64,000 bases of DNA from Halorussus marinus (GTDB lineage Archaea; Halobacteriota; Halobacteria; Halobacteriales; Haladaptataceae), in assembly GCF_004765795.1 (NCBI RefSeq), contig NZ_SBIV01000002.1, forward strand, positions 248,001-312,000, read 5' to 3'. Both the position numbers and the translations under genes were made by a program. Position 1 is the stretch's first letter, and each line of letters begins with the position of its first letter. The notes beneath the pieces were generated by a model, which did not search any database, was not told the DNA's origin, and was given only the letters and a program-made list of their open reading frames with translations. Of the stretch, positions 2,480 through 4,507 are shown piece by piece.

Positions 2480-2826
2480 ACGCCCCGCTGTTGGTCGGTG
2501 CGGGCGGCGTCCTCGGGGCGGTGGCTCGCTACGCGGTCGGCCGGCGCCTTCCGGGTCGGACCGCGGACACCTTCGCGGTGAACGTCCTCGGGAGCCTCGC
2601 GCTCGGAGCCCTGACCGTGGGCGTTCCGGCGAACGCGCCGGTTTCGGCCGCGTTCGGCGTCGGCTTCTGCGGGGCCTTCACGACGTTTTCGAGTTTCGCC
2701 GTCGAGACGGTAACGCTCTACGAAGAAGGGCGACGGCGGGCGGCGGTCCGGAACGCCGTGCTCAACCTCGTCGGCGCGCTGATCGCGGTCGGGATCGGCG
2801 GCTGGCTGGCGAGCGCCCTCGGATGA
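2476..2826 (+). CDS. crcB: Fluoride efflux channel CrcB/Fluc, second subunit
   Basis: A 116-residue, four-helix protein with the same motifs as its neighbour: GGVLGAVARYAVG, NVLGSLALGAL and GAFTTFSSFAVE. It lacks the hydrophilic N-terminal extension of the first subunit and begins directly with a hydrophobic helix. The start codon overlaps the previous stop by four bases, which points to translational coupling and a shared transcript. The two proteins differ clearly in loops and C-terminus, so this looks like an old duplication rather than a recent copy. Function is membrane fluoride export as a dual-topology or heterodimeric channel. Confidence 0.92.
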   Translation: MNAPLLVGAGGVLGAVARYAVGRRLPGRTADTFAVNVLGSLALGALTVGVPANAPVSAAFGVGFCGAFTTFSSFAVETVTLYEEGRRRAAVRNAVLNLVGALIAVGIGGWLASALG

Positions 2827-2875
2827 GCCCCGTCGAGTGTCGGTGATCGTCGATCGCGAGCCGCCCAGATCAGAC

Positions 2876-2893
2876 GTAGCGAGCGCACGCTAC
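2876..2893. repeat. Short hairpin downstream of the crcB pair
   Basis: GTAGCG and CGCTAC are perfect 6-base arms around a 6-base loop. The hairpin lies between the crcB stop and the convergent tRNA-Asp region, where a transcript end would be expected. There is no adjacent T-run, so a terminator role is only a guess. Confidence 0.3.
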
Positions 2894-2920
2894 ACGAGGC
2901 TCGTCGGGATGAGTCGCGGA

Positions 2921-3150
2921 AGAAAGCGCCCGAGGCGGGATTTAAACCACGGTCGTTCCACTCGCCGCGCTCGGTCACTTCCTGTTTCAAATCCCTTCGA
3001 TCGCGGGCTCGCCGGAGACGAGTGCCAGAGACGACCCAAGCAGTGCTCGTCGATATGGTTCGCGGAAGAAAGCGCCCGAGGCGGGATTTGAACCCGCGTC
3101 ACAACCGTGACAGGGTTGTATGATGGGCCACTACACCACCCGGGCTTTCG
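2921..3150. repeat. 230-bp direct repeat, copy A (contains tRNA-Asp and a tRNA 3' fragment)
   Basis: This stretch matches 3997-4226 with no indels and about 6 mismatches in 230 bases (offset exactly 1076). It begins with a fragment matching the 3' end of tRNA-Asp (2921-2948, from AGAAAGCGCCCGAGG onward, one mismatch), continues through about 120 bases of spacer and ends just past the 5' end of the complete tRNA. The spacer has an inverted partner of the T-arm sequence at 2986-2995 (TTCAAATCCC). Identity stops sharply at both ends, so this is a duplication boundary, not general similarity. Confidence 0.9.
3073..3145 (-). tRNA. tRNA-Asp (anticodon GTC), copy 1
   Basis: The minus strand folds as a standard 73-base cloverleaf. 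The acceptor GCCCGGG pairs with CTCGGGC (one G-U), and the anticodon stem is CAACC/GGTTG with loop CTGTCAC, giving anticodon GTC. The T arm is CGGGTTCAAATCCCG, and discriminator G73 fits aspartate identity. No CCA is encoded, as is usual in haloarchaea. A TATA-like element lies about 33 bases upstream (3173-3183). It is identical in sequence to the second copy at 4149-4221. Confidence 0.96.
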
Positions 3151-3172
3151 TCTGCACTTGCCTCTTTCGCCG

Positions 3173-3183
3173 GCTTATATTAA
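3173..3183 (-). promoter_or_regulatory. TATA-type promoter of tRNA-Asp copy 1
   Basis: Read on the minus strand this is CTTAATATAAG, an A/T-rich box in G+C-rich DNA about 33 bases before the tRNA 5' end. That is the expected place for an archaeal TATA box. It lies just outside the duplicated segment, so it is specific to this copy. Confidence 0.6.
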
Positions 3184-3316
3184 GGCGTGCCGGTTTCGTG
3201 CGCCATCGGTGTGTGCTATCGGATGGCAAGACAACTCGGTTGCCTTCACCACGGGGTCGGTGCGTTTCAGTTCGGTCCCCTCGCCCGTGTGCTTCGTCTC
3301 CAGGACCGTCCGGGGA

Positions 3317-3910
3317 ATGGTTCGACACCTATTCTACAACGGCTTCCACCCCGTGTTCCCGTGGATGGCGTTTCTGCTGTACGGGATGATTCTCGGCCGG
3401 ATGGATCTCCAGAACGTCTCCCTTCGGCGACGCGTGATGGGCGGTGCGATCGCCGTCGCGGTCGCGGCGGAATCCGTCTCGTGGATACTCACCGAGACAG
3501 TGGCCGGCAGTCTCCACTCGGTGCCGCGGTCGGATATCGCGTTCCTGTTCGGGACACAGCCGATGCCGCCGATTCCCCTCTACATTCTCGCGGGGGCTGG
3601 TACCGCAACGATAGTGATAACGGACTGTCTCGAGCTCTGTGAGTACGTCTCTAACGAAGACCTGCTTCAGCCGCTCGTCGCGACCGGACAGATGGCGTTG
3701 AGCCTCTACGTCGCACACGTCTTGCTCGGAATGGGTGCTCTGGAGGCGATCGGCCGTCTCGAAGACCAATCGCCGCCCTTCGCGATGGCCAGCGCGCTGA
3801 CGTCCTCCGTACTAAGTATCGGCTTCTCGTATCTGTGGCTCCGACGGTACTCGCGGAGTCCGCTCGAACAGGTCATGCGCACGCTGACAGATAGAGAACT
3901 CTGGTCGTGA
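3317..3910 (+). pseudogene. Truncated DUF418/YeiB-type membrane protein (C-terminal half)
   Basis: From ATG 3317 the frame gives 197 residues with several membrane segments. It starts NGFHPVFPWMAFLLYGM and has a late TGQMALSLYVAH segment, then a basic C-terminus ending in SPLEQVMR. This is the pattern of the C-terminal domain of DUF418 (YeiB-like) or acyltransferase-like membrane proteins. Family members are normally about 350-400 residues, so the N-terminal half is missing. The frame stays open back to 3107, but that part runs through the antisense of tRNA-Asp and has no family features. It sits exactly between the two copies of the tRNA repeat, so I read it as a remnant left by the rearrangement. 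A short functional protein is not excluded. Confidence 0.6.
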
Positions 3911-3996
3911 GAACTACCGGTGGGAGAAACCGCCAGCGGGCGTTCGATTTGATCGAGCGTTCGCTCGGAGCTAGCGGCTCGCGAGTCGACGTCACC

Positions 3997-4226
3997 AGAA
4001 AGCGCCCGAGGCGGGATTTGAACCACGGCCGTTCCACTCGCCGCGCTCGGTCACTTCTTGTTTCAAATCCCTTCGATCACGGGCTCGCCAGAGACGAGTG
4101 CCCGAGACGACCCAAGCAGTGCTCGTCGATATGGTTCGCGGAAGAAAGCGCCCGAGGCGGGATTTGAACCCGCGTCACAACCGTGACAGGGTTGTATGAT
4201 GGGCCACTACACCACCCGGGCTTTCG
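3997..4226. repeat. 230-bp direct repeat, copy B (contains tRNA-Asp and a tRNA 3' fragment)
   Basis: This is the second copy of the segment at 2921-3150. Its leading tRNA 3' fragment (3997-4024) matches the complete tRNA at 4145-4172 perfectly for 28 bases. Inside, GGGATTTGAA at 4013-4022 and TTCAAATCCC at 4062-4071 form a perfect 10-base inverted repeat, so the fragment ends in a palindromic arrangement. The identity with copy A ends at 4226, after which the two upstream promoter regions differ completely. Confidence 0.9.
4149..4221 (-). tRNA. tRNA-Asp (anticodon GTC), copy 2
   Basis: A 73-base cloverleaf on the minus strand, identical to copy 1: acceptor GCCCGGG/CTCGGGC, anticodon loop CTGTCAC, discriminator G, no encoded CCA. 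It has its own TATA-like sequence (4256-4261) unrelated to that of copy 1, so both genes are probably expressed. It lies divergent from the rpoH operon. Confidence 0.96.
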
Positions 4227-4255
4227 AACGCATTCAGTCGTTGACCTCGGTCGGA

Positions 4256-4261
4256 CTTAAG
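4256..4261 (-). promoter_or_regulatory. TATA-like element of tRNA-Asp copy 2
   Basis: CTTAAG lies about 37 bases before the tRNA 5' end on the minus strand, in the usual TATA position. It is outside the duplicated block, so the promoter was not copied along with the tRNA. Confidence 0.5.
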
Positions 4262-4345
4262 GCTTCTCAAACGAGTCCGGTGTGGTCGACGGTCGCGTGG
4301 GGGACTGCGCCCCAAACAATTTATACTTCGACGCAGTTCGTGACA

Positions 4346-4420
4346 CCAATAGGCGCCCGACCGTGGCCGGGAGACGGGCGCGGCCCGGGCCGGATAGCCC
4401 GTCGTGTGGCCCCTACTTAG
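4346..4420 (+). ncRNA. Candidate structured leader or small RNA upstream of rpoH
   Basis: A clear TATA box (TTTATA, 4320-4325) predicts transcription starting near 4346-4350, far upstream of rpoH. The next 70 bases hold nested self-complementary pieces: GACGGGC (4373-4379) pairs with GCCCGTC (4397-4403). Between them lies the perfect 12-base palindrome CGGCCCGGGCCG (4381-4392), and outside are GGCC/GGCC arms (4365-4368, 4408-4411). No convincing protein is encoded. It could be the 5' leader of the RNA polymerase operon or a separate small RNA. I do not recognise a known family. Confidence 0.35.
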
Positions 4421-4424
4421 CAAG

Positions 4425-4432
4425 TCTTAAAT
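4425..4432 (+). promoter_or_regulatory. Proximal TATA-like promoter of the rpoH-rpoB-rpoA-nusA operon
   Basis: TCTTAAAT stands out in the G+C-rich context and predicts a start near 4455, giving a leader of about 50 bases before rpoH. With the stronger TATA at 4320 this gives two candidate promoters for the operon. Confidence 0.5.
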
Positions 4433-4507
4433 GAGCGACGCGTGTAATGCCCTGTAGTATCTCGTGACAGCCATTTCTTCACTTTCCCAGAGAGCCCATC
4501 GCCACAC

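Follow-up and report, generated by a model that had tools for sequence, protein, structure and literature searches.

The window, a 64,000-nucleotide stretch of Halorussus marinus DNA (NZ_SBIV01000002.1, positions 248,001 to 312,000), carries two tRNA-Asp(GTC) genes on the minus strand, at 4148-4221 and 3072-3145, found by ARAGORN and by Rfam RF00005 (4149-4221 for the first). Each gene is followed in its own direction by a short non-coding unit. The last 21 nt of the first gene, from GTTCAAATC on, lie at 4149-4169 and are followed on the minus strand by a spacer (4072-4147), an inverted arm (4062-4071; GGGATTTGAA in tRNA direction) that is an inverted copy of the tRNA-Asp T-arm, a core (4024-4061) that by eye is of the GGAACGRCCGTGG type seen in units behind other tRNAs and is not tRNA sequence, and a direct copy of the last 21 nt of tRNA-Asp (4003-4023; 20 of 20 over the tested part). 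The second unit repeats this order on the same strand with a spacer at 2996-3071, an inverted arm at 2986-2995, a core at 2948-2985, and a direct copy at 2927-2947 with one mismatch to tRNA-Asp (GGTTTAAATCC). Both belong to a 230-nt stretch that includes the complete tRNA and occurs at 2921-3150 and 3997-4226, 97% identical and 1076 nt apart. Between the units, at 3326-3910 on the plus strand, lies the C-terminal part of a DUF418/HGSNAT-like membrane protein gene, identified by Pfam, in the place where many relatives carry a PD-(D/E)XK homing-type nuclease gene.

The sequence-only reading had pointed to a T-arm fragment facing an inverted copy of itself, and this observation is correct: 4013-4022, within the direct copy, is GGGATTTGAA, and 4062-4071 is its exact reverse complement with 39 bases between, while the pair at 2937-2946/2986-2995 matches at 9 of 10. 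As bare sequence, however, the pair is not clearly rarer than chance, since 10-nt inverted pairs with a spacer of about 20-60 nt were counted 20 times in the window (overlapping windows counted apart) and 10-15 times in eight first-order Markov sequences, and the bare pair was dropped as evidence. Its significance comes from conservation. Folding of the first unit as DNA from the tRNA end on gave nothing unusual (z -0.65), whereas the two hairpins of the window alone gave z -2.7 and -1.9, and three others -1.7 to -3.6.

Recurrence behind haloarchaeal tRNA genes

The pattern GATTTGAAN{24,54}TTCAAATC has 3 places in the H. marinus genome and occurs in 43 of 59 genomes (H. marinus included), with 0 matches of the reversed control pattern in all 59. 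A narrower pattern, scanned over a collection of one genome per species for 84,980 prokaryote species, gave at least 119 stretches, and the collection may not have been covered to its end; the 80 loci listed, some from the same genome, are by their record names all haloarchaeal, the class of each not having been looked up. These 80 loci hold 85 hairpins, of which 80 lie 33-391 nt 3' of a tRNA on the same strand, at 22 kinds of tRNA. The other five are two at the start of a locus (L217 and L251; L numbers denote fetched loci, G numbers genomes, with G000 that of the window, and C numbers contigs), two with no tRNA found (L231, L278), and one beside a tRNA-Ser on the other strand (L212). A pattern made of one core type alone, without T-arm letters, gave 50 places in 15 of 27 genomes; of 32 cores in the 30 loci fetched, 29 are within 600 nt 3' of a tRNA, one more is a further unit of an array (L404), and two (L399 and L410; G002 C1:464034 and 472217), on opposite strands about 8 kb apart, have no tRNA found within 600 nt upstream and no T-arm flanks. 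Whether the inverted layout recurs near other tRNAs while the loop varies had been set in advance as the test of the sequence-only reading, with its absence elsewhere marking a one-off coincidence; the layout does recur, with many different loops.

An unbiased view was obtained from the H. marinus genome itself, in which Rfam gives 71 tRNA matches. Of these, 25 were left out because they belong to two dense clusters of tRNA-like genes (C7:31479-35884 and C11:67666-71767), several with matching scores and perhaps two copies of one element. Among the remaining 46, a copy of the tRNA's own 3' end (at least 18 of 22) lies within 260 nt downstream of 11, upstream of 0, and in 0 flanks shuffled once. 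In all 11 the best inverted T-arm match within 90 nt before the copy is 8-11 of 12, a best match for which no control was run, and a twelfth tRNA (C1:713050) scores 15 of 22 but shows the same layout by eye.

The possibility that the hairpin is the attP of a full provirus was examined at five loci that at first seemed to lack a tRNA. In three (L148-L150) a tRNA with an intron lies beside the hairpin once introns are allowed, the fourth (L151) ends at the contig edge, and in L152 (G031 C1:112000-131500) what by eye is a tRNA-Gly 3' half followed by two hairpin units stands about 8 kb from the complete tRNA-Gly, with an integrase match between; among these five no full-length element between tRNA and hairpin was found. 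A viral or plasmid carrier was also sought. A first scan of viral contigs gave 108 stretches with 80 loci listed, and among the loci with GC of at least 0.48 nothing by eye looked like a unit, the rest not having been looked at; two narrower patterns gave 0, a phage BLAST of the window's first unit gave none, and the plasmid hits lie, by coordinates, over the tRNA-Leu gene of the query. Five viral contigs (L074, L086, L093, L114, L116) hold a near-perfect palindrome catGGATTTGAACC...GGTTCAAATCCatg in sequence of 58-65% GC, which looks unrelated.

Arms, cores and arrays

Read along the tRNA, a unit consists of the tRNA 3' end (A), a spacer that in many homologous units holds a trailer hairpin, an inverted, partly degenerate copy of that tRNA's 3' end (A'), a core hairpin of roughly 25-60 nt, and a direct copy of about the last 21 nt of the tRNA (A2). 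Since the narrower pattern fixes the T-arm, arm tests on its loci used only sequence beyond it. Over all 80 tRNA-linked units A2 matches its own tRNA at 11.3 of 13 on average against 5.6 for other kinds; 71 reach 9 of 13, while 9 reach only 8 or fewer. The inverted copy was examined in the 68 units within 120 nt. Segment by segment, A2 matches its own tRNA in the T-stem (0.94 vs 0.58) and acceptor strand (0.88 vs 0.55), with 0 of 1000 permutations each, but hardly in the trailer (0.52 vs 0.49, 17 of 1000), whereas A' matches the T-stem (0.66 vs 0.54), the acceptor (0.56 vs 0.49) and the tRNA-proximal trailer (0.65 vs 0.47), each with 0 of 1000, so that A' can pair with the tRNA's trailer on one side and with A2's T-arm on the other. 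The direct repeat, matching from GTTCAAATC over 21 nt, stops sharply: identity is 0.87 at position 20, 0.55 at 21 and about 0.27 by 27 (68 units, without a filter). ARAGORN's tRNA end lies 21, 22 or 23 nt from the same start in 32, 25 and 3 of 60 units, so the repeat ends at or within two bases of it.

Cores and arms are separate. In 28 units of one core type, 25 from Halorussus and 3 from two other genera, the core is nearly constant while both arms follow the host: the inverted arm matches its own tRNA's 3' end better than other isotypes (23.4 vs 18.0, 0 of 2000 permutations), the direct arm likewise (40.6 vs 20.2, 0 of 2000), and the control against the tRNA 5' end is not significant (469 of 2000). 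This test is free of the constraint of the T-arm pattern. A tRNA-Asn with a GTTCGAGTC arm has an inverted arm to match (L397). Among 31 distinct units in chosen loci of six genomes, 30 have a tRNA less than 700 nt upstream; G010 has the identical 47-nt core behind tRNA-Arg(CCT) and tRNA-Leu(TAG), and G009 the identical 45-nt core behind tRNA-Ser and tRNA-Asp, each with its own host's arms. L399 and L410 were left out of the 28-unit test, of these chosen loci and of the alignment A1 described below.

An in-place origin by replication template switching at tRNA genes, with the hairpins kept perfect by quasi-palindrome correction, was considered, since such tandem inverted duplications have the order A-A'-A, and the match of A' to the tRNA-proximal trailer is as a fold-back copy would give. 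Template switching as a maker of RNA hairpins is described in PMC8794818. Against it, the core by eye does not resemble the tRNA, including the part upstream of the T-arm from which a fold-back of the anticodon arm would derive; it is shared, even identically, between different tRNAs; neighbouring units have unrelated cores; and the repeat stops at the tRNA end. This origin seems unlikely.

Seven tRNAs in the 80 loci have 2-3 hairpins in a row by a strict pattern, with first and second cores only 0.22-0.49 alike. That pattern misses arrays detected by direct copies, by which 28 tRNAs have two or more within 600 nt, a hairpin not having been checked for each copy; spacings run from 87 to 270 nt, 30 of 33 at or below 175. 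The nearest copy is closer to the tRNA in 15, the farthest in 1, and 12 are equal (means 19.9 and 18.5 of 20; a sign test on 15:1 gives about 0.0005). This fits serial entry next to the tRNA, although gene conversion with the tRNA could mimic it, and some neighbours look like tandem duplicates (G006, G008).

A functional RNA or termination signal of the tRNA transcript, kept by selection, was also considered, since the hairpins lie nearly always downstream on the tRNA's strand and pairs flanking the core motif covary (columns 21-78: CG 23, UA 3, GC 2; columns 22-77: GC 16, CG 8, AU 4). RNAalifold did not pair the outer arms in alignment A1, which by eye MAFFT did not align in register. Against this reading, only 11 of the 46 H. 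marinus tRNAs have a unit, the tRNA-Asp locus varies within the genus, T-rich trailers by eye often precede the unit, and no Rfam family other than tRNA reached its cut-off in 2700-4500 of the window, where only the two tRNAs did. This reading is held very unlikely.

The tRNA-Asp locus and its nuclease gene

A search of the genus gave 18 genomes. In the 16 examined at this locus, 15 have two tRNA-Asp and 9 have at least one hairpin module. Modules between tRNA 3' ends are 139-173 bp (hairpin) or 440-930 bp (gene or gene remnant), they occur in different orders, and trailers recur between positions (G014, G007, G010 and, behind its two tRNAs, G000). The gene (Halorussus tRNA-Asp loci L323-L337) codes for a protein of about 140 aa, intact in some genomes and broken or missing in others; the two tested match Pfam PF11645, PDDEXK_5 (E 2e-40), and the best solved relative is 2ost (E 1e-7), which is I-Ssp6803I. 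PF11645 is present in 50 of 117 haloarchaeal genomes. Of 30 loci fetched (L352-L381), 28 have a tRNA directly upstream on the same strand (20 Asp, 6 Pro, 1 Lys, 1 Gly), 11 of them with a second complete tRNA-Asp behind this free-standing gene.

These findings raise the alternative that the nuclease cuts tRNA genes and that repair between tRNA 3'-end copies shuffles modules, with the hairpin units as passengers. In its favor, modules are bounded by the same tRNA 3' copies in different orders, and L381 has the order tRNA-Gly, nuclease, 19/20 copy. But the upstream tRNAs of the 28 are only of four kinds, while hairpins lie near 22; 67 of 117 genomes, that of H. marinus included, had no match; and of 14 single-tRNA nuclease loci, two of which could not be tested, only L381 had a good tRNA copy behind the gene. 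Such break repair is judged improbable as the explanation.

Interpretation and comparison with known systems

The explanation favored here, with moderate confidence, is that the pair forms the base of a hairpin in one unit of a family of small non-coding tRNA-anchored cassettes, so far seen only in haloarchaea, and that in the window two such units bracket a cargo segment. The analysis itself establishes the tRNA linkage, the host-matching arms, the cores shared across tRNA kinds, the sharp end of the direct repeat, the arrays of unrelated units, and the better preservation of the tRNA-proximal copy. It is by inference that the cassette is mobile and enters at the tRNA 3' end using the 21 nt as the shared site, so that the tRNA stays intact and older cassettes are pushed outward, with a recombinase acting in trans as the most likely agent; no pair of strains with a filled and an empty site was found, no recombinase is tied to the units, and at about 130 nt they leave no room for one. 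Also against it, no carrier is known, no unit having been found in viral contigs by two patterns, in 9 of 80 units the direct copy matches its tRNA at 8 of 13 or fewer, and one core type occurs away from any tRNA (L399, L410). The repeat end is what one expects if a cassette from another strain's tRNA of the same kind recombines within the conserved tRNA part, since trailers differ. The modest match of the inverted arm to the host acceptor strand is not predicted by a plain site-specific insertion, and this inverted host copy is the part that the known elements compared here do not explain; it is probably kept matched to the host because the folded hairpin is the recognised form, or because template switching copies one arm onto the other. 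The suggestion of the sequence-only reading, a small dispersed element built from tRNA parts and more than a simple att fragment, is supported, except that the arms copy the neighbouring tRNA's own 3' end and change with the host, while the loop is a separate core that by eye is not tRNA-derived, and that the inverted pair alone is not statistically unusual.

A bolder reading, possible but doubtful, is that haloarchaea have an integron-like acquisition system without genes, in which tRNA genes serve as the landing site and folded hairpins with host-matched arms are captured one after another at the tRNA 3' end by a recombinase not yet identified, leaving a polarised array behind the tRNA. A family of miniature cassettes, spread over many haloarchaeal genera, that keep the tRNA intact, share cores between tRNAs, take their arms from the host and stack up in order would be a new kind of mobile DNA, or a natural record of events at tRNA genes. 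It might also explain partial tRNA remnants beside intact tRNAs, and it offers a tractable system for finding the recombining enzyme. No description of such units was found in the papers searched, which did not extend to supplements or to papers without a CC licence; partial tRNA genes are treated in PMC9897764, without mention of the inverted arm, the core or arrays.

Partial tRNA remnants next to full tRNAs in Haloferax gibbonsii (PMC7921747) are perhaps the direct copies of such units, which was not tested, and no hairpin, inverted arm, core or array is mentioned for them. The I-Ssp6803I-type PDDEXK_5 homing endonucleases form a module at the same tRNA loci but are free-standing beside the tRNA, and no PF11645 match exists in the H. 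marinus genome. With tRNA-targeted integrative elements of the SNJ2, SSV and pNOB8 types the units share a direct repeat of the tRNA 3' end and an intact tRNA, but they have no integrase, no cargo, a spacing of about 130 nt (30 of 33 between copies being 87-175 nt, without room for an integrase gene), and an inverted host copy inside. In the roughly 5.4-kb insert with an integrase match between two tRNA-Gly copies of H. marinus (L202, C3:369200-376900), the repeat is 57 nt and a hairpin unit lies outside it, beyond the second copy; L152 looks the same by eye. Integron gene-cassette arrays with attC hairpins are likewise anchored, the newest member seems to be next to the anchor, and each unit ends in a variable hairpin. 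Here, however, the anchor is a tRNA, the units have no genes, the arms follow the tRNA, and the RYYYAAC/GTTRRRY ends of attC are not matched, the ends being mostly GATTTGAAC/GTTCAAATC with C, not R, as the fourth base. As for polarised serial acquisition at one anchor, the gradient of 15 to 1 with 12 ties and the unrelated neighbours were seen without any insertion being observed, which leaves the point undecided, and the integrases detected were not classified as to IntI type. MITEs, REP, and the small mobile repeats and PATEs listed for Haloquadratum (PMC3119063) are, like the units, short, non-coding, palindromic and present in several copies, but the ends of the units are not constant between copies, being copied from the host tRNA with the core unchanged, and nearly all units lie at tRNA 3' sides.
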